A stretch of 64,000 nt of DNA from Mya arenaria (taxonomy: Eukaryota; Mollusca; Bivalvia; Myida; Myidae): contig NC_069136.1 of the NCBI RefSeq assembly GCF_026914265.1, positions 15,093,225 through 15,157,224 on the forward strand, written 5' to 3'. Positions 8,701 to 64,000 of this stretch are shown in pieces. The notes beneath the pieces were generated by a model that searched no databases, was not told the DNA's origin, and was given only the letters and a program-made list of their open reading frames with translations. The stretch's first letter is position 1, and every line of letters begins with the position of its first letter. The translations under genes and the position numbers were made by a program.

Positions 8701-11700
8701 AAGAGAAGCTTATAGAGGAAGAAGTTGCCAGGAGAGTTGAAGAGCTGGTCGCTAAAAGAGTTTCTGAGGAACTAGAGAAACGCAAAGATGAGATCGAGGA
8801 AGAGGTGAAACGTCGTGTGGAGGAAGCAAAACAAATCATGGAGAAGCAGATGTTGAAGGAGTTGGAAATGCAGCGACAGAGGGAGATCGACTCGCAGAAA
8901 AGAAAAGAGGTAAAACAGTCATTTTGGTTATCATTGGTTACCCTCGTCATTTGTACATGTACATTTGTACAACATACTCATTACCTCAGCCTCCTGGCAA
9001 TGCTCTCATTGCTGAAAAAGAGGTGGTTGTGGAATACAGATGGACACACAGGCTTTGCAGTTGGCTTGTCCCTATTATTAAAAGTAAAAAAAACAACATA
9101 TGTCCAAATAGGCTTTTCAACTCTCTTCGAAATTATGAAATTGAGCAATCCCTAATTCCTACACAAGCGCTTGGAATTTTCAAAATCAACAAGAACCTGC
9201 TTGTAACTCCTGAATTTGAGCAAGCCTGGAAAGCATTATAACAGGATAAGGCTTGTGCTTATTTCGACCACTGCCAAATGAAATCTTCAGTTTTCTTTTT
9301 CATTTGCAAATACATGAAGGCGTTTTTGAGCATTCAGTGGATAAAGTATGTGCTGCTCTTCCATTTGTTACAAGCCCTTTACTGCTTCAAAGCTTTTGTG
9401 TCTTTTTCTCCAATTTAATAATAATAGGAATTATATTCATTTTTCTTCAAACATGGATAAGGAAATTGAAGAAACTGTGGCAGTGTTTTGAAATTTCTAT
9501 GATTGGAAAATAAATTTATGGTTGAAGTTTTCAATTTGAAATATAAAAACGAAAAACTTACACAATGAAGCATTTAGCCATTTTGAGACACTTCAAGGCA
9601 ATAAAACAATTTCCTGGGGAAGGCCCTGATGTCTGACTTTGATGAACTAGCCTAAATCTTAAAATACTAACCCTTGTAACTTTTGGAACAAGCCAGGCTA
9701 TGTTGAAATTATTGTTGATCAAACCCAGTAATTATCCATTTACTTTTTATGTATGTTGAAAAATTTACTCTGTCAAGTTCAGATAACCCACTGCCATAGT
9801 TTTCATAGTTAAGCCGCTGTATTACAAGATAATCATTACTACATGGAACTCTAGTGTATTTGTTTTATTCTTTAGTCTTATAACTAATCATGGCTCAAAT
9901 CACACAAAAAATATCATCCTGCATAAATTTTTCAAATTATGTTCTGATCATTGAATGCACACTAGTCATAATATTGTATTGAAGAGTGTCCCTTGGAATT
10001 CTTTTTTTGTGACAAATAATGAATCTGACTGGTTTGATGGTCAGATTTGTGTAGTATTTTGATGTGCACTGTAGAATTTACAAGTTTTATCTGTAAAAAA
10101 AAAAGAGCATCAAAAAATAATTGTTGTGAAATTTTCATTTATTTGAAAAGCAACTTCCCTTTTTATTTCAACTATATATAACTCCCTGTAAGCTGTAATG
10201 ACTGTTTCTGCTGTTTTTAACATAAATATTTTGTTTTTACCAAAAAGTTGCACCCGTTTTACATGTTTGACCTGAATATAGTAAGTACCTGTTATATATT
10301 ACTCTTATTATTGAAGCAAGTTAACATCTGAAGTCATGACCATTCTGTGCTGAAAAAGACATTTGTAAATCATTGTTTTCTTGATTAATAACAAAATAAA
10401 AAGTTTTCATTGGCGTGGATGGTTTTGCTTCAGTTGTTTACAAACAGAAACTGATTAACAGTTTACACACATTTTAGCAGATTACATTGAAGAGTTGTGC
10501 AATTTAAATTGTTTTTTTTAAATTAAAACAAAACAAAAACTCAACATTAAATGTTAACCTTAAAAATACAACAACAATGTGGCATACACAATGGGCTGTA
10601 TACCAAAAAATCATTATAACACATCATTGTTCAAGTCTGCTAGAAATGTGGACTGTTATTCAGTGTATTGAACGAACATGAATTGTTCTAACCATAGGCT
10701 AATGATTACTTTTCCAGGGTAGTGTAGATATTGTTGTTTATTTGTTTCAAATAACAGATGAAAAGATTCAAATTTATTGTAGGTGCCCATTGATAATTGA
10801 AAATTGGAAAACACTTTGCATGGAAAGTGTTTGCAAGTATTTTATTTTCACAAACCTTCACACCAAGTCTGTATGTCTGTCTCTGTGATAAATAAGTAAT
10901 GCTTCGAAACATTAACGAAAAATATTTTGGCATTGATCGATGTAGCACATTGTGTCGCATGCCGAAATAAAATGAAGGAAATCAGTGCGGTACGCCATAG
11001 AGCAGGGACACACATCTTTTCATAGGTAAAGTCGGCAGATTGGTAAAGTACATCCGGGGGCTGTCCATCCAGATATACATATATATCTTAATATTTACTG
11101 TCATGCTTTTTATAGAAAACAATATTTAATCTTTATCTGATGGACAAGGTGAGTATATGCTCATGAAATAAAAAGAATAGTCATGTCTCGCATGATTATT
11201 CTTGCCCTTTCATTTAATATCCCCATTTTAAACAGTTTTTTTCTCCTCCATTATAAACTAACTTGTGTTTCTTTGCTTTATCAATGCTATAAATCTACAT
11301 GTAATGTTTTATAATATATAAGTTTAAGATATAGAGAAGTTATACAATGAATCAAGTGCCTCAATGAAACCCCACACATGTATAAATAAATCCAAAAGCA
11401 AAATAAAACTGTGTGTGTTTCATCGAAGACTTAATGCTTGTAAAAATCCAAACTGTGATACGATCAATCATCGGAATTTGCGCGTGTGTACATGTATGTT
11501 TGTGTAGGTATGTGGTAATATTGGCCCCCGATATCACTGTTCCCTATTTTTTAGGAGGATGAGCGACAAAAGCGTCTGGATCTGGAGCGTATCATGGAGG
11601 AGAACAACAAAAAGATGGAGGAAGCTCAGCGGAAATTGGTAAGATACTTTAAGTGAACTTTTACTGTAAGTCAGTGTTATTTCAAAGAATTGCTTAAACT

Positions 11701-15744: not shown

Positions 15745-15830
15745 AAAATGACCCTTATTAGGTCAGCAAGTCAAAGTCCTGACCTTTCACCCAAGAGGTT
15801 GTTGTTTTGATCCCCACCAGGGACTCTCAG
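15745..15830 (+). repeat. tRNA-like SINE head fragment
   Basis: Contains ctttcacccaagaggt followed by gttttgatccccaccaggga. The same order (tctcacccaagaggtca, ttcaatcccaaccagga) makes up the 69-bp units at 60602-63560, and a related form is at 35745-35830. The second word fits a degenerate RNA polymerase III B box (GGTTCGAATCC). Fragmentary; ends not defined. Confidence 0.5.
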
Positions 15831-17582
15831 AAAGGACTCAGTACTAGAAAAATGATGGGTGCTCCCAAAAGATGACACATTGATTTGTAAAGTTCTTGTT
15901 GAATATAAAAGCTAGGGACAATCTTGCTTGATACATGTTTTCTTCAGTTAAAGAATGATGCATCTTGTATAATAATTATTGTTTATACATGCACAAACAT
16001 AGTTGTGCCTTTACTAAGGAGACTTTTTGTTTTATGTGTTTTAATGTAGTACACATATTTACACTCTCGAATCCATAATTTATCATTATATATGAGGTAC
16101 GGTAAGTTTGATAACACAAAGTTTGTCATTATTGTAGAGAGGTAAGTATTGTGATCTGTGAATTATGTGGCTGTAGATCATAAAATGTTTTATTTGTGCT
16201 ATGCTTTTTATATAACAAGTTATTTATTGGAAAGATTTTTTTTTTATTAAGTTTAGTAACATGAAACAGCATGATCAGAATATTTTATTAAGGTTTCATA
16301 AAAGTTGCACTCTCACACTCTCACATATTGACTCTTTCGACAATTGTTTTTGTCTTGGAAGGAGCCAACTTTTGTGCAAATGTCAAGAGAAAAGTGATAT
16401 AAGACTGCTTACAAAAGATCAGATCACAGTTTTTCATATAACTGTTTTTATAAATTTTTGTTTTATTTCTAAAAGCATTACTAATGCTTTAAGAAAAATG
16501 GAATTTTGAGATGACATTTGAGATCTGTTCTATTGTGAGTCATTTTATATGACTGGATTGAAGTAAAGCCATTAATGCAATATCATCTGTTACTGAGACA
16601 AAAATTAAAGCAATATCAAAACTGTCAATCTGTGGGAATGCAGCTTTAATACTAGGGTTAAGGTAAGTATTCAAACATATGTGAACAGTTCATTCCCCAA
16701 GCCTTGGGCTAAGGTCATGTTTGATTCCTGTCACAGTTTATGAAATTTATGATAATACTATTTGAATTCAATGACAATTTGCTTGATCATATTTGACTGT
16801 TGATTTAACTTCTACAATTGTTAAATAAATATATTTTTAACTGAACTAGGTTTTTGTTGTGATTTCTTTATAAGTATATTAAATCCATAGTCATGAAGAT
16901 TTTTAAACTAAGCCTCTAAATAAGAAGATTCATCCAGGAGATACAAGAATACTGGCAGATATTACAAAAATTCATAAAAAACATGGGTTTTTTTAATTAA
17001 ACTGACGGTAATAATATGGCAGTTAAAATTTGATGTATGTTTTATTAGCAACAGAGTTTATTTATGACAACTTTGAGACCATTTTGAAACTTGTATACAG
17101 TAATAAACTTACGTTTATACTTAAATACAAGCTAAAGAATTATTTATAGATAAAAGATGTTTACTTATGAAATATTAATCCAGACATTGATTTGTTCATT
17201 GTTTTAAGTCTTCTTATCTATTAAGTATAAACATGTACATGTGTTATATTAATGGTATATACATGTCTCTGAGATCATTAGTGTGCATTTATTTATCATG
17301 ACAGACTTTCTTATACATGTATATTGTGTGTTTTTCATTATGAACATTTATGTAAGAACAAGTTTGTAAGATATATCATAAGTATTTCTTAAAAGAACTT
17401 GTGACCTTTAGCATACAATGTTTATTGTTATGGATTCCTAAATGTTTATAAATGTGGTCTGATGCCATTGTTGTACATATGATTGAATGATAAACATTTA
17501 GAAGGTGATTGTGTTTGTTTGTTTATCATCCTGTTGAATTAAAACAAAAACATGTTCCATATTTTCACATCTAACTTGTTTT

Positions 17583-19217: not shown

Positions 19218-21731
19218 CAGAAACCCTACCCTTTTAAAACCCAGCCACAACTCTTCCTTTTTCTCCAAATCCTTGACCTATTTTAACCCAGCCACAACCC
19301 TACCCTTTTCATCAGCACCCTGAGCTATTTAAACCTAGCCACAATCCTACCCTTTTCTGCAGCACCTTGACCTATTTAAACCTAGCCACAATCCTACCCT
19401 TTTCTGCAGCACCTTGACCTATTTAAACCTAGCCACAATCCTACCCTTTTCTGCAGCACCTTGACCTATTTAAACCTAGCCACAATCCCACACTTTTCTG
19501 CAGCACCTTGACCTATTTAAACCTAGCCACAATCCTAGCCTTTTCTTCAGCACACGGACCTATTTAAACCTAGCCACAACCCTACCCTTTTCTGCAGCAC
19601 CTTGACCTATTTAAACCTAGCCACAACCCTACCATATTCTGCAGCACACTGACCTATTTAAACCTAGTCACAACCCTGCCTTTTCTGCAGCACCTTGACC
19701 TATTTAAACCTAGCCACAACCCTACCCTTTTCTGCAGCACCTTGACCTATTTAAACCTAGCCACACCCCTACCATATTCTGCAGCACATTGACCTATTTA
19801 AACCTAGCCACACCCCTACCATATTCTGCAGCACCTTGACCTATTTAAACCTAGCCACAACCCTACCCTTTTCTGCAGCACCTTGACCTATTTAAACCTA
19901 GCCACAACCCTACCCTTTTCTGCAGCACCTTGACCTATTTAAACCTAGCCACAACCCTACCCTTTTCTGCAGCACCCTGCCCTTTTTAAATACCTTGCCA
20001 AAACCCTACCCTTTTTCTGTAGCACCCTGCCCTTTTTAAATACCTTGCCAAAATCCTACCCTTTTTCTGTAGCACCCTGCCCTTTTTATACCAATCCAAA
20101 ACCCTACCCTTTTCTGTAGCACCCTGCCCTTTTAATACCAAGCCAAAACCCTACCCTTGTCTGTAGCACCCTGCCCTTTTAATACCAAGCCAAAACCCTA
20201 CCCTTGTCTGTAGCACCCTGCCCTTTTAATACCAAGCCAAAACCCTACCCTTTTCTGTAGCACCCTGCCCTTTTTATACCAAGCCAAATTCCTACCCTTT
20301 TCTGTAGCACCCTGCCCTTTTTATACCAAGCCAAAACCCTACCCTTGTCTGTAGCACCCTGCCCTTATTTATACCAAGCCAAAAACCTACCCTTTTCTGT
20401 AGCACCCTGCCCTTTTTATACCAAGCCAAAAACCTACCCTTTTCTGTAGCACCCTGCCCTTTTTATACCAAGCCAAAAACCTACCCTTGTCTGTAGCACC
20501 CTGCCCTTTTTATACCAAGCCAAAACCCTACCCTTGTCTGTAGCACCCTGCCCTTTTTATACCAAGCCAAAACCCCACCCTTGTCTGTAGCACCCTGCCC
20601 TTTTAATACCAAGCCAAAACCCCACCCTTGTCTGTAGCACCCTGCCCTTTTAATACCAAGCCAAAACCCTACCCTTGTCTGTAGCACCCTGCCCTTTTAA
20701 TACCAAGCCACAACCCTACCCTTGTCTGTAGCACCCTGCCCTTTTAATACCAAGCCAAAACCCTACCCTTGTCTGTAGCACCCTGCCCTTTAAATACCAA
20801 ACCAAAACCTTACCCTTTTCGGTAGCACCCTGCCCTTTTTATACCAAGCCAAAACCCTACCCTTTTCTGTAGCACCCTGCCCTTTTTATACCAAGCCAAA
20901 ACCCTACCCTTGTCTGTAGCACCCTGCCCTTATTTATACCAAGCCAAAACCCTACCCTTTTCTGTAGCACCCTGCCCTTTTTATACCAAGCCAAAACCCT
21001 ACCCTTGTCTGTAGCACCCTGCCCTTATTTATACCAAACCAAAACCCTACCCTTTTCTGTAGCACCCTGCCCTTTTTATACCAAGCCAAAAACCTACCCT
21101 TGTCTGTTGCACCCTGCCCTTTTTATACCAAGCCAAAACCCTACCCTTGTCTGTAGCACCCTGCCCTTTTAATACCAAGCCAAAACCCTACCCTTGTCTG
21201 TAGCACCCTGCCCTTTTAATACCAAGCCAAAACCCTACCCTTGTCTGTAGCACCCTGCCCTTTTAATACCAAGCCAAAACCCCACCCTTGTCTGTAGCAC
21301 CCTGCCCTTTTAATACCAAGCCAAAACCCTACCCTTGTCTGTAGCACCCTGCCCTTTTAATACCAAGCCAAAACCCTACCCTTGTCTGTAGCACCCTATC
21401 CTTTTAATACCAAGCCAAAACCCTACCCTTGTCTGTAGCACCCTGCCCTTTTTATACCAAGCCAAAACCCTATCCTTTTCTGTAGCACCCTGCCCTTTTT
21501 ATACCAAGCCAAAACCCTACCCTTTTCTGTAGCACCCTGCCCTTTTTATACCAAGCCAAAACCCTACCCTTGTCTGTAGCACCCTGCCCTTTTAATACCA
21601 AGCCAAAACCCTACCCTTGTCTGTAGCACCCTGCCCTTTTTATACCAAGCCAAAACCCTACCCTTGTCTGTTGCACCCTGCCCTTTTTATACCAAGCCAA
21701 AACCCCACCCTTTTCTGTAGCACCCTGCCCT
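19218..21731. repeat. 47-bp minisatellite, about 53 units
   Basis: Tandem units of 47 bp. The first third uses accttgacctatttaaacc then tagccacaaccctaccctt; from about 19980 the unit becomes accctgcccttttaatacc then aagccaaaaccctaccctt. The two types are clearly related and the change is abrupt. Units differ by single bases and by 1-bp slips in the T run. The C-rich strand is on top. Stop-free minus-strand frames here are by-products. The array resumes at 23308 after an unrelated satellite block. Confidence 0.9.
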
Positions 21732-23290
21732 GTAACTAATAAAGCGATTTTCAAATAACTTTATACAAATTATCACAACATTAAAAGGATGTGTCGCGCG
21801 CAATTTCCAGGTCCATACCTCAAAGACTAGAATCACCATGGGGGTGCGTTAGCAAATCCGTGTCCAGGCCACAATTTGGTCACTAATAAAGTCATTTTCA
21901 AATAACTTTATACAAAGCATCATTACATTAAAAGGATGTGTCGCGCTCAATTTCCAGGTCCATACCTCAAACACTAGAATCACCATGGGGGGGGGGACGT
22001 TAGCAATTCCATGTCCAGGCCATAACTGGGTTACTACTAAAGCAATATTCAAATAACTTTATACAAATCATCTCTACATTAAAAGGATTTGTCAAGCATG
22101 CTTTCCAGGTCCGTACCTCAAAGGCTAATTTCACTGGGGTGCGTTAGCAATTCCGTGTCCGGGCCATAACTTAGTAACTAATAAGCGATTTTCAAATAAC
22201 TTTATACAAATCATCACTACATTAAAAGGATGTGTCGCGCGCAATTTCCAGGTCCATACCTCAAAGACTTGAATCACCATGGGGGTGCGTTAGCAAATCC
22301 GTGTCCGGGCCACAACTTGGTCACTAATAAAGTCATTTTCAAATAACTTTATACAAAGCATCATTACATTAAAAGGATGTGTCGCGCGCAATTTCCAGGT
22401 CCATACCTCAAACACTAGAATCACCATGGGGGGGGACATTAGCAATTCCATGTCCAGGCCATAACTGGGTTACTACTAAAGCAATTTTCAAATAATTTTC
22501 AAACTTTATACAAATCATCTCTACATTAAAAGGATTTGTCAAGCATGCTTTCCAGGTCCGTACCTCAAAGGCTAATTTCACTGGGGTGCGTAAGCAATTC
22601 CGTGTCCGGGCCATAACTTAGTAACTAATAAAGCGATTTTCAAATAACTTTATACAAATCATCACTACATTAAAAGGATGTGTCGCGCGCAATTTCCAGG
22701 TCCATACCTCAAAGACTTGAATCACCATGGGGGTGCGTTAGCAAATCCGTGTCCGGGCCACAACTTGGTCACTTATAAAGTCATTTTCAAATAACTTTAT
22801 ACAAAGCATCATTACATTAAAAGGATGTGTCGCGCGCAATTTCCAGGTCCATACCTCAAACACTAGAATCACCATGGGGGGGACATTAGCAATTCCATGT
22901 CCAGGCCATAACTGGGTTACTACTAAAGCAATTTTCAAATAATTTTCAAACTTTATACAAATCATCTCTACATTAAAAGGATTTGTCAAGCATGCTTTCC
23001 AGGTCCGTACCTCAAAGGCTAATTTCACTGGGGGGGGGGCGTTAGCAATTCCGTGTCCAGGCCACAACTTTGTGTTACTACTAATAAAGGAATTTTTAGA
23101 AAACGTGTCCAAGCCACAACTTTGTAACCAATAAAGCAATTTTTAGATAACTTTATACAAATTATTGCTACCTTAAAAGGATGTGTTGTGAGCACTTTCC
23201 AAGTCCTGCTACTTTTAAACTTGTATTCTCAGCTAAATGTTTATTAAAGACCTCAAGCCGAATCTTCTTCGGGCGTATAATGCTCCGTTT
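21732..23290. repeat. 147-bp satellite in a three-monomer higher-order repeat, inside the minisatellite
   Basis: Monomers of about 144-151 bp each carry taaag-attttcaaataactttatac, acattaaaaggatgtgtc and ccaggtccatacctcaaa. Three monomer types (A, B, C) differ in their ends: A has CACCATGGGGGTGCG, B has CACCATGGGGGGG followed by a conserved ATTAGCAATTCCATG-like end, C has TTCACTGGGG. The A-B-C trio recurs at 21732, 22174, 22621 and, degenerate, 23068 (spacing about 442-447 bp). The second and third C monomers share a small insertion (ataattttcaaactt) absent from the first. The last part (23068-23290) is decayed. Confidence 0.85.
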
Positions 23291-23307
23291 CGCGGTGCTC
23301 TTGTTAT

Positions 23308-23645
23308 TCCAAGCCAAAACCCTACCTTTTCTGTAGCACCCTGCCCCTTTTATACCAAGCCAAAACCCTACCCTTGTCTGTAGCACCCTGCCCTTTTTTT
23401 ACCAAGCCAAAACCCTACCCTTGTCTGTAGCACCCTGCCCTTTTAATACCAAGCCAAAACCCTACCCTTGTCTGTAGCACCCTGCCCTTTTAATACCAAG
23501 TCAAAACCCTACCCTTTTCTGTAGCACCCTGCCCTTTTAATACCAAGCCAAAACCCTACCCTTGTCTGTAGCACCCTGCCCTTTTTATACCAAGCCAAAA
23601 CCCTACCCTTTTCTGTAGCACCCTGCCCTTTTTAATACCTAACTA
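23308..23645. repeat. 47-bp minisatellite, right-hand remainder (about 7 units)
   Basis: The same 47-bp unit as the later part of 19218-21731 (accctgcccttttaatacc, aagccaaaaccctaccctt) resumes after the satellite block and ends near 23645. The unit type is the same on both sides of the satellite, which suggests that the satellite block invaded an existing array. Confidence 0.85.
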
Positions 23646-24507: not shown

Positions 24508-25231
24508 ATCAACATGATCTGAGTTGTCAATCAACCTTCCAATTAACATGATATAAATTGTCAATCCACCATCCAATTCATATGATATAAATTGTCAATC
24601 CACCATTCAATTGTTATGATATAAATTGTCAATCCACCATCCAATTAACATGATGCTGGCTGTAAATCAACCCTCCAATTGACATGATATAAATTGTCAA
24701 TCCACCATCCAATTGATATGATATAAATTGTCAATCCACCATCCAATCAACATGATATAAATTGTCAATCCACCATCCAATTAATATGATATAAATTGTC
24801 AATCCACCATCCAATTGAGATGATACAAATTGTCAATCCACCATCCAATTGACATGATACAAATTGTCAATCCACCATCCAATTGACATGATACAAATTG
24901 TCAATCCACCTTTCAATTGACATGATACAAATTGTCAATCCACCATCCAATTGACATGATACAAATTGTCAATCCACCATCCAATTGAGATGATACAAAT
25001 TGTCAATCCACCATCCAATTGACATGATACAAATTGTCAATCCACCATCCAATTGAGATGATACAAATTGTCAATCCACCATCCAATTGAGATGATACAA
25101 ATTGTCAATCCACCATCCAATTGACATGATACAAATTGTCAATCCACCTTTCAATTGACATGATACAAATTGTCAATCCACCATCCAATTGACATGATAT
25201 GAGTAAAATGGCAATCAACCATCATATTCAA
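24508..25231. repeat. 34-bp minisatellite, about 21 units
   Basis: The unit is ttgacatgatacaaattg plus tcaatccaccatccaa. Early units (to about 24800) read atgatataaattg, later ones atgatacaaattg, showing an ordered spread of variants. Two units further on (near 24910 and 25150) share the variant cctttcaattgac and have the same neighbours, suggesting duplication of a block of about 7 units. No spacers are present, so it is not a CRISPR array. Confidence 0.9.
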
Positions 25232-34500: not shown

Positions 34501-37500
34501 CTTGATGTGATTCGGTGTCTGCCTGCAGAGCAAGAGGTCATGTGTTTGATCCCCAATAAGTGCAGGTATCAATTTGTGCAGTCTGTTACATAAATAATCA
34601 TGCCTGTATACTTTAGCCATGATAGACAAGAGCCACAAGCCCGCAGGCAGGCCGGGCGGGGACATAGGGAAGGCTAAACACAAGCCTAAAGGTGTCTCCG
34701 ACCTCGTGAAGATGAAGGCTCTCAGTGTTCACGAATTGTCTGTGGTGAGTAGCGGTAGTTTCTTCAGTCTTATGTGTGATCTTCAAAAAGTTTGCATTAT
34801 ATTTAACTGATCGATTATTGAGAACTTAGTATCTTCAGAAGCTATGTTTACATTGAAATGTAAATGTATGTAAATGACATTATGTTTTTAAGTTATGTAT
34901 CAAAATTCGGAAGGCGCTTTGATTATATACATCTTATTTTGAAACAATCACTTACTGTAATCATATATGTAAAAAATACCCTTTTGAAGATAAGGCAAAA
35001 TGTGTTTCTTGTAATTTGTTTGAAAATTATTTTTATATTTCTTTAAATCTTAAAAGAAAATGTTTAAAAAATACATGAAGTATGAAAAAAAAGTTTGAGA
35101 AATATACATTTTAATGGTAAAAAACATTATTTTATCATAAATCAGGAGCAACAACTATTCTACAAGGAGATCACAGAAGCATGTGTCGGCTCAGACGAGA
35201 TCAAGCGCTCCGAGGCCCTCCAGTCTCTTGCCACAGACCCTGGCCTGCACCAGATGCTGCCTCATTTCACGTCATTTGTTGCTGAGGGGGTGAGCATCAT
35301 ACCTATTTATTTGCTCTTCAGATTTTTGCAGTTATAGAGTTGAGGTATTGTGCTAGCCTTGGTTGTCTGTGTCAGTGACATCGTTTTTTTATTGTGGCCA
35401 TAGCCAAATATTGTTTAAGATATTCAAACAAAAATTGACACAAATGTTGCTAGAGACTGTGTACATGCATACCAAGGCCTACTACATTGACTTTAATAAC
35501 TGTCAAGTTATGCCCTATTTTTGTCTGAAAAACAACAACTGTATAGCATCTGCTTTGTAGTGCTCATTCATTTACCTATGTATAGTAAAGAAATAACAAC
35601 TGCCATGCTATAGTTGTGCAAGAGTGATATCCCTTATGCTGGTGGAGGTGATCACTATCAAATATGTATTATATTTGCCTTGCAATAGTTATAGTATACC
35701 CAAAATTAGTACAGTAGTATCAACTGTTGCTGACATGCTCAGGGTGGTCTAGTGGTATAGGTGTCCACCTCTAAACCTATAGGTTGTGGTTTAGATTCTC
35801 AACCAGGGAAACATTCTCTCAAAACAGTTTCTGCCAGGAAACAGCCCAAAGAGTGATTTAAAACAATTTCCAGCTGTTTCAAAAATAATTTAATAGTATA
35901 AGTAAGCTTTTCACTCAACTTGAGGTTATTGTTGTACAATTTTTGTATTTATCATTCAGGTAAAGGTGAACATAGTACAGAACAACCTGGCCTTGCTCAT
36001 CTACCTGATGAGGTTGATGAAAGCACTCATGGAGAACCAGACCATCTACCTCGAGAAATATGTGAGTACATCATCCTTTTTTCACATCACAAGATTTATT
36101 GCACTTTCATTTATATAATTTTGTCAATTAAAGTACAAAGGTAACTATTGCAGACAATAGTTATCTGATTAACGTTCACTGTTCTGTTTATTTAATGCCA
36201 ACTGGCCATATTTTGAGTAAGAAGCTGTGTAGAAAGCCTGACCCCAATATTTCGAAACATCTTAAGCCTCTTATACGAAGATAAAGCTAAGCTCACTATT
36301 TCTGTGCTGTTATAATTTGTGTAATATTTACATTTATTAGAGTTTTTGGACATTATGCTTACAATTATCTCAATTAACTAGGTATTATTTTGTAAAATGA
36401 AGATCAAATAATTTGGCTAAAATGGAATAAGGTACTCAAGCTTATTATGCTTAAGCACTTTTGAGAAATGCGAGCCAGAAGCCTTAATCTGTATATTGCT
36501 ATAACATCATGTCTAATGATGTCATGTTCTATTTATAGCTGCATGAGTTCCTGCCTGGAGTGATGTCATGCATTGTGAGTAAGCAGTTGTGTATGAGGCC
36601 AGATGTGGACAATCACTGGGCTCTCAGAGACTTTGCAGCCAGGCTAAATGCTCTCATATGCAAGTAGGTTAATCAAGCAGAATGTATAGAAACATCACAG
36701 CAATGACATTTTACATAAACACGTAATATTGATGAGGTTGAAAACTGAGCAGTATGGCTAGGGATTTTTATGGCAATAAAAAAAAGAAGACGGGAAATGC
36801 TCATGAGATATTATAGAAAACAGTATACATATTTTTGCATGTAAAGCCACTCTGCAATGTCGTATAATACATTGCATCAACTGTTTAAGGTAATATGCAA
36901 ATGTTCTGTAATTTTGTTATACTAAGTATACTATTCAATAGTTATTTTGATAAGATGCAGTGATAATGTTTTGCATGTATTACCTTGCAGAAATTTCCAC
37001 AACAATGTAAACAACATCCAGGCGCGTGTGACTAAGACGTTCAGTAAGGCTGTACGGTCGGAGAAGGCGGCCCTGGCCACAATATACGGAGCACTCAGCG
37101 GACTCGGGGAATTGGGGCCAGAGGTGAGGGCATCATTTTACTCAGATAGTAATTTGTCTGTGCTATTATTTTCAAAAAAGAAAATATGCAGTGGTATCAT
37201 ATACAGTCATCATGGTCAGCTAAATCGGCTTCATTGATTTGTTGTGGCTGTTTTTGTTTTTGTACACCTTTGCATTTAGACAAAATATGTGAAGCATGTC
37301 CAATAAATGTTGCCTAAATATATGTCAAATTATACCCCTTAATTGACTGATTTAGCTGGATTTTAATTACTACATAGCCGGGCTAGTTACAATTTCTTCA
37401 GCCATGTAGTGGTGTAAGATTATGACTTACTTATTTTTCAGTGACTTTTCTTGCATACTTTCAAACTGCTAGTGCCTTTTTGATTGGGGAAATTAACATG

Positions 37501-40500
37501 ATAAGTCCATCATCTGGAAAATTTAAATAATGCAAAATAATAGAATGAGTTACAAATATTCATCTTCTAACCAAATATATAGTTTTGCAGTAGAATATAG
37601 TACCAAGTTTTGAAAGGAAAATAACATGAATATTTTTGAAAAATGGATGGTGTGTCACATGGGAAAACAGTCTGTAAATGACAAAAAAATTATGTACAGA
37701 CCACTGAATTGTCTGCTTTCAAAGACTGGAAGTACATGTAAGCTAGATAGTGTTTTTGCGATACATGTTTAAAGTCCTGATTCAATTAATATTTATTTTA
37801 TTTTATTGACAGCCATGCATTGCATGCACAATTAAATAAATCATTGATAATTATGTCAAACAGTTTGCCAGTTTTGTAATAAAATATAATAGATTATATT
37901 GATCTGAAGAAATGTAAATGATTGTTTGCAGGTTGTTCACTCGTTTGTGGTGCCGAACATTCGTATGATCGGGGACCGAGTGAGACAGGCAATAGATGGG
38001 CAACAACTTACTAACAACGCTGACAGGATTGCCGCCGAAAATATAAAGAAACTTGCAGCGGTGAGTGCCTCTCTTAAAAGAAGGAAACATTTGGGGATTG
38101 TCGTGGGGAAAAATTAATATTGAGAAGGGATTATTTTTCTCTTGTGTTTATTAACTTTAAAGGTACTTGCTCATTTTTGTAAAATGCATTTTTTAATGAT
38201 GAAATAAAGTGTGGCAAATCATTAAAAGTGATCATGAATTAACATTGAGATGTATACAAACGAGGGATTGATGCAGAAGAAGGGTGTTATGTCGCTGATA
38301 TAGTGAGGAGGCACATTATTTATGTCTTGTGTTTAAAGGGACTCAGTCATGTTTTGTAAAATGCACTTTTTTATGACAAAATAAAGTGTGGCAAATCATT
38401 AGGAATGTTAAAACTAAGATACTGAAGGCTTGAACCCATCAACAAATGTTAATATATGCTCAAATATTGTCTTTGAAGTCAACGATTCTGAATTGCGTTA
38501 GTAAAGCTTTCCAACAAAACCTTAGTGTTTAATTATCACTCAGCTAATGCAAGAGTCCTTATGGGCGAGTGTTTTTGTTGTCAATTTTCTATTATTTCTT
38601 GACTGTCATGCATTTATTCTTAAATTGTTTTTTTCCTGCATTTTCAGTATCAAAGAGTAAATAATTTTAAAAAATTAGTGTTTCCAGATGCATATCCATA
38701 AAAACATATTTTTGGTCTAAAAACATGAGCTAGTCCTGTTATATCAGTCAAAAAGGTCTTTTGATTAGGGATTGGGTGTTTTCTAGTTCAATTGTTTTAT
38801 GCAATTGTTTGCAGTGTTATGACACTTTTTCACTTTTAAATGTCAATCCTCACTGCAGAAGTATATCTCACCGGTGTTGAAGACACACCGTCTGCTGACA
38901 GACACTATAGAGGACTACACAGCGGAATACGGCTACTTGGGTCCACTCTTACATGCCGCTGTTGGGAAGGAGAGGAGTTCTTCCACCTCCAGTCAGGGTC
39001 CCCCTCATAAGCCAACTATACAGATATCACAGGTAGGGCCTGGCATAGAAACCCACTATTCAGATAGTACAGGTATGGCCTTATACACAAACCCACCATA
39101 CTGGTACACAGATAGGGCCTCACATAGAAACCCACTATTCAGATAGCACAGTAAGGGCCAGCACAGTAAGGGCCTCATACACAAACCCACCATACTGGTA
39201 CACAGGTAGGGCCTCACATAGAAACCCACTATTCAGATAGCACAGGTATGGCCTTATACACAAACCCACCATACTGGTACACAGGTAGGGCCTCACATAG
39301 AAACCCAGTATTCAGATAGTACAGGTATAGCCTTATACACAAACCCACCATACTGGTACACAGGTAGGGCCAGGCATAGAAACCCACTATTCAGATACTG
39401 TGAAATCATTAATGTTCGTGAGGCATTAATGTTCGTGGTTTTCGTGGGTTGGGTGATCCACAAATTCAAGATCCCAGGAAATATTGACCCTTTATTCCCT
39501 TTTTCAATTGCCATGTTATGTACATACTCCAGTTTATTTGTTACAGAAGCCGCAGTATACATCGTAAATATCCGTCTAAGTGTATATCGTACTATCATTA
39601 TTTTGTTAATATATTATATCAGCCTTTAACAAATAATAAACCAAATCATTTTAATGTGTTTTTATGAACCAAATGACAGAAGCAATTGCATTAACCTGTG
39701 CTGTTCATGAAAATCTCCAGGTTTACAAGATGTGAGTGATGAGTGTCGGTTCTCAATTTTATTTCTTTAATGAAATAATTAATCGATAACATTAAAGGTT
39801 ACTGAACACCCAATGTGACAATGTACAAAACAAAGCGTTCAATAAACTTATTAAACAAAAACGTGTGAATAAATATTGAAATGAGATGATATTCAAAAGT
39901 AATTGAATTTGTAAACATCAGCTATCTTTAGGGATTGTTTACTCAAATATACGGACCTTCTCGGTGTTTTCACAGTTTGCAAAATTCTTAATTGGCATTC
40001 AATGGCTTAGTCTATCTGTATTTAGGATCAGGGTACATCTTCTTTTATGACCTTAATTTCCAATTAAATCGATAATTGACATGGATATATGCACTAATTG
40101 GCATGTCGTACCACTTTAGCCAGCGTCATAAACCGAGTGACGTCGACAACAGAAATCACGGGCCAGCGCGTGGAATGCAGTCAATCTAGAACGATCGCAA
40201 TATTGATTATATTTTTCTTTTCAAACATGAAAAACCACGAATTCAAGTACCCACAAAATTGTCATTTTTCGGCAAACCATGAAATTTCATGCCAACGAAT
40301 ATAAATGATTTCACAGTAGTACAGATATGGCCTAATACACAAACCCACTGTACAGGTACACAGGTAGGGCCTCACATAGAAACCCACTATTCAGATAGCA
40401 CAGTAAGGGCCTAATACACAAACCCACCATACTGGTACACAGATAGGGCCTCACATAGAAACCCACTATTCAGATAGCACAGTAAGGGCCAGCGCAGTAA

Positions 40501-41565
40501 GGGCCTCATACACAAACCCACCATACTGGTACACAGGTAGGGCCTCACATAGAAACCCACTATTCAGATAGCACAGGTAAGGCCTAATACACAAACCCAC
40601 TGTACAGATACACAGGTAGGGCCTGGCATAGAAACCCACTATTCAGAAATTACATATAAGGCCTCAAAAAGTCCACCATACATAGGTAGGGCCTTTAATA
40701 CATACAAACCCATTATACAGTTATTATGCCATATGTGATGTTCCACAAAAAGTTTATCATTTTATGGATTTAATTATTATAATAGAATATCTTTTCTCGA
40801 AAAAAGGAATCACATTTAATAATTAATGCTGTATAGGAGATAAAAGTTAAAGCCTTTAATTGTTTTCATTGCAGGTCATATTTTAAACTAGCCCCAATAA
40901 CTACAGTGTATAATATTCAAAATAAAAAAGAACAAAACTAACAAGCTTTAAGCCAAGACACAGTATTTCACTAGGTGATTATCTTCGGGCTTGTACCATT
41001 CCTCTTGAGAGAAGGATCGAAGAGTAATTCATATCAGCTAATAAGGTGTATCTGACTTTACAATTGGGCTTAAATAGATAATAGTTAATTATAACTGTTA
41101 CTTTTTTTGCAGGGCAAGCCCCATATATTTCTGGGAGGGTCAGGCACCTTGTCCACGCCACAGACGCCCACATCTGCACGTCCCCTACAAAACATTACAT
41201 TTCCCCGCACCCCATCCATCCCTGGAGTTGGTCAAAACCCTAACCAGAAGTTTGTCATCATGCAGCAACCAAGGGTGTCATCAGTACCCATGCAGACCAC
41301 GGGAGTGGGAGTGGGTGGCACTTCAATAGTAAAAGTCCTTCCAGGAATGCATGGAGGGTCAACGGGTAACATTACCAGTGGTGTCAGTGCTAGTACCATA
41401 ACATCGTCAGGGAGTACAGGAGGGCAGAAGATTGTTGTCATGTCTGGTTCCCAGCAGCCTATGCAGGTGCAGGTGTCTTCAGGAGGGGAACCAGGCAGGC
41501 AGGTGTTCACTTCCGCCACAGGCGAGCAGATCTCCATAGTGAAAACAGAACCATCACATTTGTGA
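31580..41565 (+). CDS. TAF6: TAF6, transcription initiation factor TFIID subunit 6 (12 coding exons, 630 aa)
   Basis: Coding exons: 31580-31738, 32516-32602, 32840-32993, 33801-33905, 34617-34744, 35146-35289, 35960-36061, 36539-36663, 36991-37123, 37932-38060, 38859-39032 and 41113-41565. GT-AG introns and phases sum to 1,893 nt, 630 codons plus TGA (human TAF6 is about 677 aa). Residues 15-82 are the histone fold that pairs with TAF9; the next stretch has [20 protein letters not shown], the TAF6 signature after the fold, then PAIPENPPP. Residues 205-460 are the conserved HEAT-repeat domain ([53 protein letters not shown]). Residues 481-630 are Gly/Ser/Thr-rich and of low complexity, as in other TAF6 proteins. 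The signature favours TAF6 over its paralogue TAF6L. Its role is core-promoter recognition and TFIID assembly in the nucleus. Odd points are a MITE 14 bp after exon 1 and a tandem array starting exactly at the exon 11 donor. Confidence 0.96.
31757..32039. mobile_element. piggyBac-like MITE, 283 bp, TTAA target site (TAF6 intron 1)
   Basis: TTAA flanks both ends (31753-31756 and 32040-32043). The left end AGGCCTAGTTAAGG and the complement of the right end AGGCATAGTTTAAG are inverted repeats. The body matches the partial copy at 12648-12915. TTAA duplication is the hallmark of piggyBac-type transposition. The element starts 18 bases after the last base of exon 1. Confidence 0.75.
33600..33700 (+). 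repeat. SINE body fragment (TAF6 intron 3)
   Basis: The order tgtcaccaag, aagtgggttt, ctcctggcactcc and ccacctcaca resembles the body of the SINE at 49749-49950 (ggtcaccaagc, aagtgggtttgcttctg, cccccacaac). No tRNA-like head is seen here, so it is a fragment. Confidence 0.4.
34196..34600 (+). repeat. Two diverged tandem copies of a tRNA-like repeat (TAF6 intron 4)
   Basis: Copy 1 (about 34196-34330) and copy 2 (about 34462-34600) share, in order, gcgcttatattgtc/gcacttatactgtc, agagctag, gtatcagcctg/gtgtctgcctg, agcttgatccg/gtttgatccc, and caatttgt(ct/gc)agtct. The second contains gcaagaggtcatgtgtttgatcccc, like the 69-bp array unit. It ends about 15 bases before the exon 5 acceptor. Confidence 0.55.
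35745..35830 (+). repeat. tRNA-like SINE head (TAF6 intron 6)
   Basis: ggtggtctagtggtataggt fits a D-arm/A-box and gtggtttagattctcaacc a degraded B box. Between them lies ccacctctaaacctataggt, an anticodon-arm-like stem. The same scaffold with different wording forms the 69-bp repeat at 60602-63560. Not an intact tRNA gene. Confidence 0.5.
38157..38410 (+). repeat. Pair of ~70-bp direct repeats (TAF6 intron 10)
   Basis: Two copies, about 38157-38228 and 38335-38405, share tttgtaaaatgca, aataaagtgtggcaaatcat and the leading ctcatttttg/gtcatgtttt text. They lie 178 bp apart in the same direction. Probably two hits of one dispersed repeat, or a local duplication. Confidence 0.6.
39033..40700 (+). 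repeat. 79-bp tandem array in TAF6 intron 11, split by a MITE
   Basis: The unit is cacaggtagggcctcacat, agaaacccactattcagatag, cacaggtatggccttatac, acaaacccaccatactggta; the two halves are themselves related (caggta-ggcc then aaaccca). It runs 39033-39397 and 40317-40700 around an inserted element. The last bases of exon 11 and the donor (ACAGATATCACAG|GTAGGGCC) match the unit (TTCAGATAGCACAG|GTAGGGCC), so the array begins exactly at the splice junction. Confidence 0.85.
39398..40316. mobile_element. TA-flanked MITE, 919 bp, inserted in the 79-bp array
   Basis: The left end CTGTGAAATCATTAATGTTCG and the complement of the right end CTGTGAAATCATTTATATTCG are inverted repeats, with TA on both sides (39396-39397 and 40317-40318), as in Tc1/mariner-type insertions. 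Subterminal copies of cattaatgttcgtg recur at the left. No transposase frame. It interrupts the array cleanly at a TA in cagata|cag, so it is younger than the array. Confidence 0.8.
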
Positions 41566-58170: not shown

Positions 58171-58837
58171 GTGACTGAGTCGAACCCCACTGGCTTGAAC
58201 TCCCTTGGCTCGAATTCCTCGTTGGCTTGAACTCCCTTGGCTCGAATTCCTCGTTGGCTTGAACTCCCTTGGCTCGAATTCCTCGTTGGCTTGAACTCCC
58301 TTGGCTCGAATTCCTCGTTGGCTTGAACTCCCTTGGCTCGAATTCCTCATTGGCTTGAACTCCCTTGGCTCGAATTCCTCATTGGCTTGAACTCCCTTGG
58401 CTCGAATTCCTCATTGGCTTGAACTCCCTTGGCTTGAATTCCTCATTGGCTTGAACTCCCTTGGCTCGAATTCCTCATTGGCTTGAACTCCCTTGGCTCG
58501 AATTCCTCATTGGCTTGAACTCGCTTGGCTCGAATTCCTCATTGGCTTGAACTCCCTTGGCTCGAATTCCTCATTGGCTTGAACTCCCTTGGCTCGAATT
58601 CCTCATTGGCTTGAACTCCCTTGGCTCGAATTCCTCGTTGGCTTGAACTCCCTTGGCTCGAATTCCTCATTGGCCTGAACTCCCTTGGCTCGAATTCCTC
58701 ATTGGCTTGAACTAGATGTTAAGAACCGATTTCTTTATACTGAAGGTAAATATTCTTGCTTGGCTCGATTTTTATGAGGCTCAAGGTATTTTGCTGGTCC
58801 CTCACAGGGAGTTCAAGCCAGCAGGGTTCTGGGGTGC
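58171..58837. repeat. 32-bp array inside an inverted-repeat element
   Basis: About 16 units of ggcttgaactcccttgg plus ctcgaattcctcatt (58189-58715). The array is bounded by inverted copies: the left edge reads tggcttgaactccc after gtcgaacccca, and the right edge gggagttcaagccagcagggtt. Between array and right edge lies cttggctcga-ttttatgaggctcaaggta, related to the MITE at 53958. So one terminal segment of a MITE seems to have been amplified in place. Units vary mainly at a/g in cctc(a/g)ttgg. Confidence 0.8.
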
Positions 58838-59044: not shown

Positions 59045-60601
59045 AGCCCCCAGCTGTATAAAACTGTTCAGTGTTAAGAAAGTCTCTTGTATAATTAAAA
59101 CAGAGCAACAAGAGTATATATTTAAACAATTGAGGCTAATATGAACCTTCATGGTCTTAAAGCACAGAATTTCAATGGTAATAAAATACTGTAATATTAT
59201 TTCGAAATTGAAATTTCATATTCATTACCAAGTCTCAAGTTTTAGGAAGGAGTAATTTTAAGTGACAGTGTCTCCAGTTTTTTTTTAAAAGGAGAGGAAG
59301 ATAAGTGAACCATTCATCGATACACGATACCACCATACTTTTCACCCAAGTTCGGGCGTTTTAGGATGAGCCTAGTTTGCACAAGTATAAAAGCAAAAAG
59401 TTGCATCTTTTTTTTAACCCAATTCTCGCATCTTTTGCATAATCATTAATGTACCGGGTACTTCTTTTAAAAAGAAATACAATTTCATCAGCTGATAAAA
59501 CTTTTTCTGTGTAAAGACGTATGAAGTTTTGAAAGGGAGGACATAATTTAACTATCTTCCAAATAATGGTTGAGTGCATCTGAATAGCGAAAACAACTTA
59601 ATTTTCACCATGATTATCACAATGTTATATAAAAGGGAGACTGTAGAAAGATTTATTATGAATGAATAACCATATTTGGAGTATATTTAAAGGTCTTTAC
59701 ATGTTGATGAACTGGAAAGATTTTCTACTGTCAGTTATTTTTCTCTGTATAGACTTATAAGTAATGGTTAGTGATTGTTAGTAATTTTTTATATGTACTT
59801 ATCAAAATAAATGGTCTGATGCAGTGCAGTCGCATAACTATTTATTTAGTGTAAATTGCATTCTTACCATCTTTAGTTTTTTTAGTGGTCTACATTATTT
59901 CATGTAAACTACCCATTTACTGGGCCAGCCACGGTTCATATCTGCCACTTGACCTGATTAAAATCAAGAACAGCTGACTGCTGCTTTACTGAAAAACTTG
60001 AGAAATACTCATTGGACAAAATATTTTGTTGACCTGGATGGTGTCTTGAAAATTACAAATTTAGATTGTACACGCATAAATTAATTTGATTGTAAATCAA
60101 TTATGTACTTCCTATTTAAAATTACACAGAAGCTTTCAAATTATGTTTTTGAATGTAATGCAACCACTAACATTAAACAACAATTATTTTATCATTAAAG
60201 TATTCCAAAATGTGTATATATATAATTATAAATATGTTATGTGCTATTCATAGATTTTATAAAGTATGTACATGTATGTTATACCTCCATACTTTTATTT
60301 CAGTAAACGTTTTAAATGTATACCTTATCTCAATAAGAAGCCCTTTAACTATAAGTTTATTTACATTTTATGTGTGCTTAAACTCCGACCAAAGCTGAAG
60401 TTACTTTTGAGATTTTGTCCTACCATTGAATGAAAACATTGTTGAAAATGGTTTGACTCTCAAATCAGCTCGGCCTTTTGATTCAAAACCAAGATAAAAT
60501 TGACAAAAAATTAGAATGTATATAATATTACATCTTAACGATATAAGGGTTCATACCAATGCCATCTTGTAAACAGCAATGGTGGGATTTAAATTTAGTG
60601 T
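59045..60601. other. Gene-poor DNA with the second copy of the ~250-bp duplication
   Basis: No gene is supported. Positions 59800-60035 are the second copy of the sequence at 52615-52862. The remainder is AT-rich and plain; the minus-strand open frame at 59361-59579 shows no recognisable feature. Confidence 0.45.
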
Positions 60602-63560
60602 TTGATTAGGTGTCTGCCTCTCACCAAAGATGTCATTGGTTTAATCCCAACCAGGATGAGAGTGTTATATTGGTTGAGGTGTCTAGCTCTCACCCAAGAG
60701 GTCATGGGTTCAATCCCAACCAGGATAAGTGTGTTCTATTGGTTTAGGTGTCTGCCTCTCACCCAAGAGGTCATGAGTTCAATCTCAACCAGGATAAGTG
60801 TGTTCTATTGGTTAAGGTGTCTGCCTCTCACCCAAGAGGTCATGGGTTCAATCTCAACCAGGATAAGTGTGTTCTATTGGTTAAGGTGTCTGCCTCTCAC
60901 CCAAGAGGTCATGGGTTCAATCTCAACCAGGATAAGTGTGTTCTATTGGTTAAGGTGTCTGCCTCTCACCCAAGAGGTCATGGGTTCAATCACAACCAGG
61001 ATAAGTGTGTTCTATTGGTTTAGGTGTCTGCCTCTCACCCAAGAGGTCATGAGTTCAATCACAACCAGGGTGAGTGTGTTCTATTGGTTAAGGTGTCTGA
61101 CTCTCACCCAAGAGGTCATGGGTTCAATCTCAACCAGGGTGAGTGTGTTCTATTGGTTAAGGTGTCTGCCTCTCACCCAAGAGGTCATGGGTTCAATCTC
61201 AACCAGGATAAGTGTGTTCTATTGGTTAAGGTGTCTGCCTCTCACCCAAGAGGTCATGAGTTCAATCACAACCAGGGTGAGTGTGTTTTATTGGTTAAGG
61301 TGTCTGACTCTCACCCAAGAGGTCATGAGTGCAATCCCAACCAGGATGAGAGTGTTATATTGGTTAAGGTGTCTAGCTCTCACCCAAGAGGTCATGGGTT
61401 CAATCCCAACCAGGATAAGTGTGTTCTATTGGTTTAGGTGTCTGCCTCTCACCCAAGAGGTCATGAGTTTAATCTCAACCAGGATAAGTTTGTTCTATTG
61501 GTTAAGGTGTCTGCCTCTCACCCAAGAGGTCATGGGTTCAATCTCAACCAGGATAAGTGTGTTCTATTGGTTAAGGTGTCTGCCTCTCACCCAAGAGGTC
61601 ATGAGTTCAATCTCAACCAGGATAAGTGTGTTCTATTGGTTAAGGTGTCTGCCTCTCACCCAAGAGGTCATGGGTTCAATCACAACCAGGATAAGTGTGT
61701 TCTATTGGTTTAGGTGTCTGCCTCTCACCCAAGAGGTCATGAGTTCAATCACAAGCAGGGTGAGTGTGTTCTATTGGTTAAGGTGTCTGACTCTCACCCA
61801 AGAGGTCATGGGTTCAATCACAAGCAGGGTGAGTGTGTTCTATTGGTTTAGGTGTCTGCCTCTCACCCAAGAGGTCATGGGTTCAATCTCAACCAGGATA
61901 AGTGTGTTCTATTGGTTAAGGTGTCTGCCTCTCACCCAAGAGGTCATGAGTTCAATCTCAACCAGGGTGAGTGTGTTCTATTGGTTAAGGTGTCTGCCTC
62001 TCACCCAAGAGGTCATGAGTGCAATCCCAACCAGGATGAGAGTGTTATATTGGTTAAGGTGTCTAGCTCTCACCCAAGAGGTCATGAGTTCAATCCCAAC
62101 CAGGAGGAGAGTGTTATATTGGTTAAGGTGTCTGACTCTCACCCAAGAGGTCATGAGTGCAATCCCAACCAGGATGAGAGTGTTATATTGGTTAAGGTGT
62201 CTAGCTCTCACCCAAGAGGTCATGAGTTCAATCCCAACCAGGAGGAGAGTGTTATATTGGTTAAGGTGTCTGACTCTCACCCAAGAGGTCATGAGTTCAA
62301 TCCCAACCAGGATGAGAGTGATATATTGGTTAAGGTGTCTGCCTCTCACCCAAGAGGTCATGAGTTCAATCGCAACCAGGATGAGAGTGTTATATTGGTT
62401 AAGGTGTCTGACTCTCACCCAAAAGGTCATGAGTGCAATCCCAACCAGGATGAGAGTGTTATATTGGTTAAGGTGTCTAGCTCTCACCCAAGAGGTCATG
62501 AGTTCAATCCCAACCAGGAGGAGAGTGTTATATTGGTTAAGGTGTCTGACTCTCACCCAAGAAGTCATGAGTTCAATCCCAACCAGGATGAGAGTGATAT
62601 ATTGGTTAAGGTGTCTGCCTCTCACCCAAGAGGTCATGAGTTCAATCCCAACCAGGATGAGAGTGTTATATTGGTTAAGGTGTCTAGCTCTCACCCAAGA
62701 GGTCATGGGTTCAATCTCAACCAGGAGGAGAGTGTTATATTGGTTAAGGTGTCTAGCTCTCACCCAAGAGGTCATGGGTTCAATCCCAACCAGGATGAGA
62801 GTGTTATATTGGTTAAGGTGTCTAGCTCTCACCCAAGAGGTCATGGGTTCAATCCCAACCAGGAGGAGAGTGTTATATTGGTTAAGGTGTCTAGCTCTCA
62901 CCCAAGAGGTCATGGGTTCAATCTCAACCAGGAGGAGAGTGTTATATTGGTTAAGGTGTCTAGCTCTCACCCAAGAGGTCATGGGTTCAATCTCAACCAG
63001 GAGGAGAGTGTTATATTGGTTAAGGTGTCTGACTCTCACCCAAGAGGTCATGGGTTCAATCTCAACCAGGGTGAGAGTGTTATATTGGTTAAGGTGTCTA
63101 GCTCTCACCCAAGAGGTCATGAGTTCAATCCCAACCAGGAGGAGAGTGTTATATTGGTTAAGGTGTCTGCCTCTCACCCAAGAGGTCATGAGTTCAATCC
63201 CAACCAGGATGAGAGTGATATATTGGTTAAGGTGTCTGCCTCTCACCCAAGAGGTCATGAGTTCAATCCCAACCAGGATGAGAGTGTTATATTGGTTAAG
63301 GTGTCTGCCTCTCACCCAAGAGGTCATGGGTTCAATCTCAACCAGGATGAGAGTGTTATATTGGTTAAGGTGTCTAGCTCTCACCCAAGAGGTCATGGGT
63401 TCAATCCCAACCAGGATGAGAGTGTTATATTGGTTAAGGTGTCTGCCTCTCACCCAAGAGGTCATGAGTTCAATCGCAACCAGGATAAGTGTGTTATATT
63501 GGTTAAGGTGTCTAGCTCTCACCCAAGTGGCTATGAGGGTCCGAGTCCCACCATGGAGTT
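60602..63560 (+). repeat. 69-bp tandem array, about 43 units, tRNA/SINE-derived
   Basis: The unit is ggttaaggtgtctgcctct, cacccaagaggtcatgggtt, caatcccaaccaggatgag and agtgttatatt. GGTTAAGGTGTC resembles a Pol III A box; cctct...agagg is an anticodon-arm-like stem; GGGTTCAATCCC is a good B box and T-arm match. Left-half units end ataagtgtgttctatt, right-half units atgagagtgttatatt. Related single copies occur at 15745, 34500 and 35745. Because 69 is 3 x 23 and several frames lack stops, open frames of 1,012 (60602-63640) and 575 codons run rightwards and one of 530 codons leftwards. Unit-to-unit changes (gcc/gac/agc at one site) alter the amino acid in both plus frames, so no frame looks protected. 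The last unit (about 63500-63560) ends in a different tRNA-like text, ggctatgagggtccgagtcc. Confidence 0.85.
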
Positions 63561-63579
63561 GCACATTCACTTGGAGTGA

Positions 63580-64000
63580 GTTGGCCTGTATAAATAGTAC
63601 ACTGTGTTATTGGTTTCTACCCAGGAAAATAACTTTATAATGTGATTCATATCGGCTTGTTACAAGCTAGCTGTCTTAACAATCAATCTAAAAAATATGG
63701 TATGAGTCTATTCAATGATTTATTTTGTAGCGCAATTATTCCCCAGTCTTATCTTTATTGGTTTCCTAAGGACCCTTTTCTCTTAAACTTGTGCATCAAC
63801 AGGATGCAAAGTTTTTGAAGAGATATATGTGCTTAAAACTATGCTAATTTTTGACTATCAGGTTTTGGCCCAGGACCCAAGGGTCTGAGTAGAAGGAACT
63901 CATTAAAGAAATAAAACAATCATAGTATTTACTTGACCAGAAACATGCATGATTTTAGCCTCACTCGGGTTAAGTTAATGGGGTACGTTCAGAGCCTTTC
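63580..64000. other. Right flank, nothing recognised
   Basis: The large open frame of the array runs out at 63640. The remaining sequence is AT-rich and shows no exon, inverted repeat or RNA gene that I can support. Confidence 0.5.

Follow-up and report, generated by a model that had tools for sequence, protein, structure and literature searches.

Near the end of a 64,000-nucleotide stretch of Mya arenaria DNA (the window, located at 15.09–15.16 Mb on contig 15 of the assembly), some 43 short, tRNA-like units follow one another head to tail. Such an array raises the questions of what its units are derived from, how they were multiplied, and whether the array has a role.

The array and its neighbours in the window

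A tandem repeat with a period of 69 was detected by TRF at positions 60608–63527 of the window, with 42.3 copies, 94% matches, and 0% indels. In the unit table, the unit starts were spaced every 69 bp from 60608 through 63437, giving 42 consecutive units, and a 43rd, degenerate head started at 63506. The array of about 43 units proposed in the first-pass annotation was thus resolved into 42 units of exact length and one degenerate unit (Table 1). The first unit had 6 differing positions and carried neither an A box nor a B box. The chain identified with the SINE model started at 60606, and the few bases of the first head upstream of that position were placed by eye. Over its 69 bp, the last head departed from the unit consensus at 35 positions.

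Table 1. SINE-related features of the window
Feature	Position	Strand	Basis
Diverged first head, forming the 5' end of the decayed SINE (approximate start)	60590..60676	+	Unit table, SINE model
42 head-to-tail 69-bp units, from the SINE head (tRNA-Glu-like)	60608..63505	+	TRF, unit table, consensus match to SINE head
Two adjacent ten-unit blocks (60677-61366 and 61367-62056)	60677..62056	+	Lag-10 identities, long exact repeats at lag 10
Last, degenerate head, adjoining the body; T-arm/B-box-like segment unlike the array units	63506..63556	+	Sequence
Diverged SINE body, single copy, directly 3' of the array	63583..63696	+	Body model
Single-headed SINE relic (head and body), in an apparent gene region	35741..35861	+	SINE model, E 8.3e-20
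SINE fragment (3' part of head, start of body)	15782..15847	+	SINE model, E 5.1e-12
Possible head-only relic, weak	34512..34560	+	Head model, E 3.8e-4; SINE model, E 1.3e-3

The mean mutual likeness of the window units was 92%, and their identity dropped with distance along the array (r = −0.31; none of 5,000 permutations was as low). Units 2–11 and 12–21 were 0.96–1.00 identical when compared unit by unit and constitute a duplicated block, the trace of a multi-unit duplication. The distance decay and the block duplication are both marks of local duplication and exchange.

Two other identities were considered for the array and rejected. It is not a set of intact tRNA genes, as ARAGORN found no tRNA genes in the window, nor is it a snoRNA, as the only matches to the Rfam model TB11Cs4H3, on the minus strand, scored 25.6–32.6 bits, below the cut-off of 40. 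RNA folding of four sequences gave z values of −1.74, −1.40, −0.13, and 0.45, with nothing strong among them.

The body 3' of the array was recognized with a model built only from single-head SINE copies elsewhere, from which the window and the relic at 35.7 kb had been excluded. The match had an E value of 5.5e-7, whereas the best match in the reversed-window control had an E value of 7.5, and 83 of 127 aligned columns were identical between the window body and the SINE body. Detection of the body required the profile: no match was returned when the downstream flank of the window array was compared pairwise, by blastn, with the flanks of the other arrays. When window positions 63500–63700 were searched against the genome, one other match to part of the body was found (77% identity, query positions 109–193, E = 7.9e-7), together with head-like matches. 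The 500-bp upstream flank of the window array matched none of the other array flanks compared, and no target-site duplication was found around the window array.

The three single relatives of the unit that had been noted elsewhere in the window do exist, and they are unequal in strength: E = 8e-20 for the copy at 35741, 5e-12 for that at 15782, and a weak 1e-3 for that at 34512. The reversed-window control gave no SINE-model match at E ≤ 10. The relic at 35741 sits among exon-like pieces at 34600–36100, which we take to resemble TAF6; two short pieces from this region had no protein-family match. An ORF at 8673–9152 matched the Pfam family ARGLU (PF15346, E = 5.4e-17).

Short satellites are abundant in the window. 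At 19223–23639, TRF reported a 47-bp array (53 copies), followed by a 147/447-bp array and then by the 47-bp unit again (7 copies), so that the 47-bp satellite seems to be interrupted by the 147/447-bp one. Further tandem arrays were found at 24524–25199 (34-bp units), 39015–40666 (39/79/94-bp), and 58191–58713 (32-bp units).

The parent SINE and its multi-head loci

The 1.216-Gb assembly, consisting of 18 contigs, was searched with a single-headed copy (L044) from among the fetched loci as the query. Of the 2,732 first-look candidates, 40 were scored, and all 40 matched, which bore out the expectation that SINEs with the same head occur in the genome. Two samples of single copies were examined, both drawn from best matches and therefore leaning to young copies. 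The first comprised 20 copies fetched by whole-SINE similarity, every one of which had one head and one body. From 19 of these (L055 was left out because the expected tail motif was absent), a consensus of 196 nt was derived, composed of a 70-nt head and a 126-nt body, with a four-G joint between the two in 17 of the 19 copies and an unreadable joint in the other two. The second sample comprised 20 of the 41 matches listed for the body of L027 alone, with L027 itself and copies already read skipped, and it was likewise single-headed throughout (20/20). Among these copies, fetched regardless of head number, 40 of 40 were thus single-headed and none was two-headed.

Target-site duplications with a score of at least 9 flanked 16 of the 21 single-head copies tested (the first 20 and L044), compared with 1.2% of swapped pairs, and were present in 10 of the 20 copies in the second sample, read without the swapped-pair control. 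Some of the single-head copies are duplicates of one insertion (e.g., L063/L064 and L071/L072). With a tRNA-like 5' head bearing A and B boxes, a conserved non-tRNA body and tail, dispersed copies, and target-site duplications, the family has the features of a tRNA-derived SINE. In three young single-head copies (L063/L064 and L067), a direct duplication of approximately 15–18 bp of the SINE 5' end was seen by eye.

In sequence comparisons, the SINE head looks like tRNA-Glu(CUC). Aligned with a tRNA-Glu sequence, it scored 52, whereas the best of 1,000 shuffles scored 28. With the Rfam model for tRNA, a single unit in the sister array L013 (positions 2963–3019) reached 29.9 bits, above the cut-off of 29, and other matches in that array reached 23.7 and 23.6 bits. 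Matches at E ≤ 5 were obtained for two of seven array loci (L013 and L017, the latter with 22.7 bits), and a match at E ≤ 1 for one of 18 single-head loci (L067, 24.1 bits), with CUC at the anticodon place. The alignments covered positions 7–64 of the 71 positions of the tRNA model, leaving the acceptor stem outside. Covariance scoring therefore favoured a tRNA origin in the one L013 unit above the cut-off and did not do so for the window, the units of which had no match up to E = 5, nor for most other heads, which were not listed. Elsewhere in the genome, dense clusters of high-scoring tRNA genes were observed (G000:C2:46.66–46.74 Mb and C6:74.37–74.39 and 77.04–77.06 Mb); on C6 the spacing was often approximately 705 bp or some multiple thereof, pointing to a repeat of tRNA genes in tandem.

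The survey of multi-head loci took in the window together with the surroundings of matches to its unit at 37 other loci. It contained 40 chains of at least two heads, ranging from 2 to 54. A body lay within 130 bp after 27 of the 40 chains (that of the window and 26 of the 39 others) and before none, although several of the body matches were weak (E = 1e-4 to 4e-3) and the chains were partly non-independent, some loci being duplicates. Of the 13 chains without a body, two extended to the limit of the sequence read. Another 20 loci were read as stretches of 667–1181 bp, and eight of them contained a body. A query spanning the head–head joint gave at least 205 matches on many chromosomes, the best 40 of 290 candidates having been scored.

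The upstream flanks of the arrays matched one another only within duplicated loci, and the downstream flanks had the body in common. A clear target-site duplication was present at one of the 23 testable multi-head loci, a four-headed copy (L012) with perfect 12-bp duplications at both expected ends. The bodies of multi-head loci (up to 114.5 bits) were more diverged than most single-head bodies (91–146 bits; 101–144 bits in the second sample). Across 21 loci, unit identity was 0.88 within a locus and 0.79 for units of different loci, and 334 of 393 units had their closest counterpart within their own locus. The arrays thus have a unit derived from part of a SINE, a terminal unit that runs on to the SINE end, and a variable copy number, as SINE-derived satellites do.

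Two of these loci have further peculiarities. In a seven-headed copy (L016:1481–2225), a 29-bp segment within the body (53–81 in the model) is also tandemly repeated, with at least 20 repeats according to TRF and the body matches. In the other (L027:2215–2280), a 32-head array starts about ten bases past what appears, by eye, to be an exon end and 5' splice site.

Probable amplification in place and the alternatives

Seven groups of loci had common flanks on both sides, or nearly the whole stretch in common, and are copies of one insertion. Provided that the tandem repeats are correctly assembled, the number of heads differed in five of the seven: 9.0 versus 5.7 in L013/L035; 17.7 versus 19.4 in L015/L045, with 13.1 in a second L015 array; 10.9 versus 8.9 in L017/L018; 13.0 versus 10.0 in L024/L025, the flanks of which are 99% identical; and about 6 versus 13 in L086/L094 (5 versus 12 by another count). 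The numbers were equal within each of the other two groups, L036/L038 and L037/L039, whose two group counts were 6.0/5.9 and 8.4/8.4. Because copies of one insertion differ in this way, the number of heads changes in place. In the window, the unit consensus agrees with the SINE head at 57 of 69 positions, and the 12 differences are carried by a mean share of 0.88 of the units; as most units have these differences in common, decay came first, and amplification or homogenization later.

We consider it probable that the array is a SINE-derived satellite, in which the head of one decayed copy was amplified in place while the body was left single. A single-headed member of a large dispersed family, composed of a tRNA-Glu-like head with a Pol III promoter, followed by a body and an AT-rich tail, would have been inserted long ago and would have decayed after its insertion. 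Its head would then have been duplicated and multiplied in place to about 43 units, with the body remaining single, through DNA-level events that may have included replication slippage, unequal exchange, and local conversion, by which the units would keep one another similar. Many other old copies of the SINE may have followed the same course. We infer that the first duplication, too, occurred in place. The array most likely has no role and would be a by-product of repeat instability. The suggestion that the head of a tRNA-derived SINE was turned into a satellite, most likely in place, is upheld by the presence of the SINE in the genome, the body after the array, and the differing head numbers of duplicated copies. 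Counting against this explanation are the low frequency of target-site duplications at multi-head loci, the chains without a body, the weakness of several body matches, the junction common to most arrays, and the tendency of multi-head bodies to group together in a tree of bodies.

The last two points concern an alternative that excludes amplification from a single-headed copy and that we think possible but unlikely, namely a single origin of a SINE with two or a few heads, either through an early duplication or because the template was re-entered as it was reverse-transcribed, followed by its spread through retrotransposition and by later growth or shrinkage of the copies in place. Two or more head–head joints could be counted in 49 of 58 loci, and the same junction, CAGGG followed by TGAGAG, was present in 44 of the 49; one of the five loci without it (L044) is not an array. 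A few-headed ancestor would account for this common 69-bp junction, from which the single copies, with their four-G joint, differ. A common junction is not obviously expected from independent origins and would reflect either the spread of one few-headed ancestor or repeated formation of the same joint; however, the queries used to find the arrays spanned the junction and so favoured it in the sample. The four-headed copy between perfect target-site duplications also fits such an ancestor, as do L083/L084, two copies of one insertion that begin inside the T-arm of an upstream head like a 5'-truncated multi-head copy. Together with the short 5'-end duplications in L063/L064 and L067, the starts of L083/L084 keep the retrotransposition route open. 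In a tree of bodies (25 multi-head and 43 single-head rows), the multi-head label changed 11 times, compared with a mean of 19.7 after shuffling, and none of 500 shuffles was as low; the multi-head bodies as a single clade were not rejected (AU p = 0.21). On the other hand, the 11 label changes of the unconstrained tree (bootstrap 10–12) are weakly supported, and no two-headed copy was found among the 40 fetched regardless of head number, though these lean young.

It is more doubtful still that head multiplication is a recurrent property of the SINE, with a fixed junction between head end and 5' end made repeatedly, perhaps by reverse transcriptase re-entering the structured head. If this were true, the SINE family would steadily seed multi-promoter loci that grow into satellites, a built-in route from mobile element to satellite.

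A functional array, that is, a TFIIIC or Pol III locus kept under selection as an insulator-like cluster of B boxes or as a source of short RNAs, seems very improbable from the condition of its promoter boxes. Of the 42 window units, 41 have an intact A box (TRGYNNANNNG). The A-to-B pattern was matched 14 times within the array, never on its other strand, and never elsewhere in the window on either strand; in 200 base-shuffled arrays, it occurred at most once each. Runs of TTTT are so rare, with one inside the array (61286) and the next past the body (63723), that a predicted Pol III transcript could extend far. At seven of 21 loci, a strict B box is kept in most units, including the long arrays L009 (25/29) and L027 (27/32), as well as L012 (4/5), L017 (10/11), L018 (9/9), L020 (12/14), and L022 (3/3). 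Against selection, the strict B box (GWTCRANNC) is present in 14 of the 42 window units, variability is higher in this box (0.104) than in the remainder of the unit (0.054), and 12 of the 21 loci have it in only 0–2 units. At the B-box CpG of the young SINE, 191 of 393 unit rows across these loci have CA and 61 have TG (252 together), and 33 still have CG. Decay of CpG to CA or TG is expected in unconstrained methylated DNA, and the pattern looks like neutral decay. The proposal that every unit carries a B-box-like motif therefore holds only loosely. The dense cluster of working TFIIIC sites envisaged in the first-pass annotation, which calls for intact and maintained B boxes, is not supported, with two thirds of the units lacking a strict B box and that box varying more than the other parts of the unit.

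A repeat encoding a repetitive protein can be dismissed: the 69-bp unit corresponds to 23 codons, and long open frames are present on both strands, one of 1013 aa, but a unit that is a multiple of three keeps any stop-free frame open, the general unit consensus of 21 loci, checked by hand, has a stop in each of the three forward frames, and descent from the SINE head accounts for the unit, so that the open frames are a by-product of its length.

Comparison with known SINE-related and Pol III-related repeats

SINE-derived satellites (sSats) have been reported in squamate reptiles (Vassetzky et al. 2023, PMC10702118), and the authors left their occurrence beyond squamates open. The clam array belongs with these satellites, and what is new is the bivalve case. 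In a literature search confined to titles and the openings of abstracts, we found no account of SINE-derived satellites in bivalves or of this SINE.

The clam arrays resemble the squamate sSats in that the tandem unit comes from part of a SINE and the terminal unit continues to one SINE end, and in that there are many dispersed loci with locus-specific subvariants within arrays (PMC10702118). Unit number is variable in both, between orthologous loci in the squamates (PMC10702118) and between duplicated loci in the clam. The clam unit is exactly the whole 69-bp head, whereas the main snake unit (67 nt) consists of the 3' part of the head and of the body; in a minor gecko variant, sSat3Ppi2, the unit matches the tRNA portion of its SINE and averages 151 nt (PMC10702118). 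The sSats are described as preferring subtelomeres (PMC10702118), whereas 7 of 38 clam array positions, picked by similarity and partly duplicates, lay <5 Mb from chromosome ends compared with 5.2 expected, which is no clear excess. The host of the clam array is a bivalve, and its SINE is apparently unrelated to the squamate ones.

Several amphibian repeats related to Pol III (Xenopus OAX/satellite I, newt PolIII/TAN, Rana/polIII, and Hydromantes Hy/polIII) are likewise tandem and contain a tRNA-like or Pol III promoter segment (PMC10702118, PMC9659126). Their units are approximately 200 nt or more, and their link to SINEs is termed inconclusive (PMC10702118), whereas the genome with the clam array also contains its parent SINE, complete with a body and target-site duplications. 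SINEs can also be dimeric or multimeric (Alu and the Dip multimers; PMC10702118), with more than one promoter-bearing unit per element; however, whole SINE units are repeated in these or the dimers are mobile, whereas the clam arrays repeat the head alone, from 2 to 54 times. The clam arrays add an independent case of SINE-derived satellites in a phylum distant from squamates, in which one assembly contains the parent SINE as well as few-headed copies, long arrays, and duplicated loci of variant length, so that the path from SINE to satellite is directly testable across individuals and sister species.
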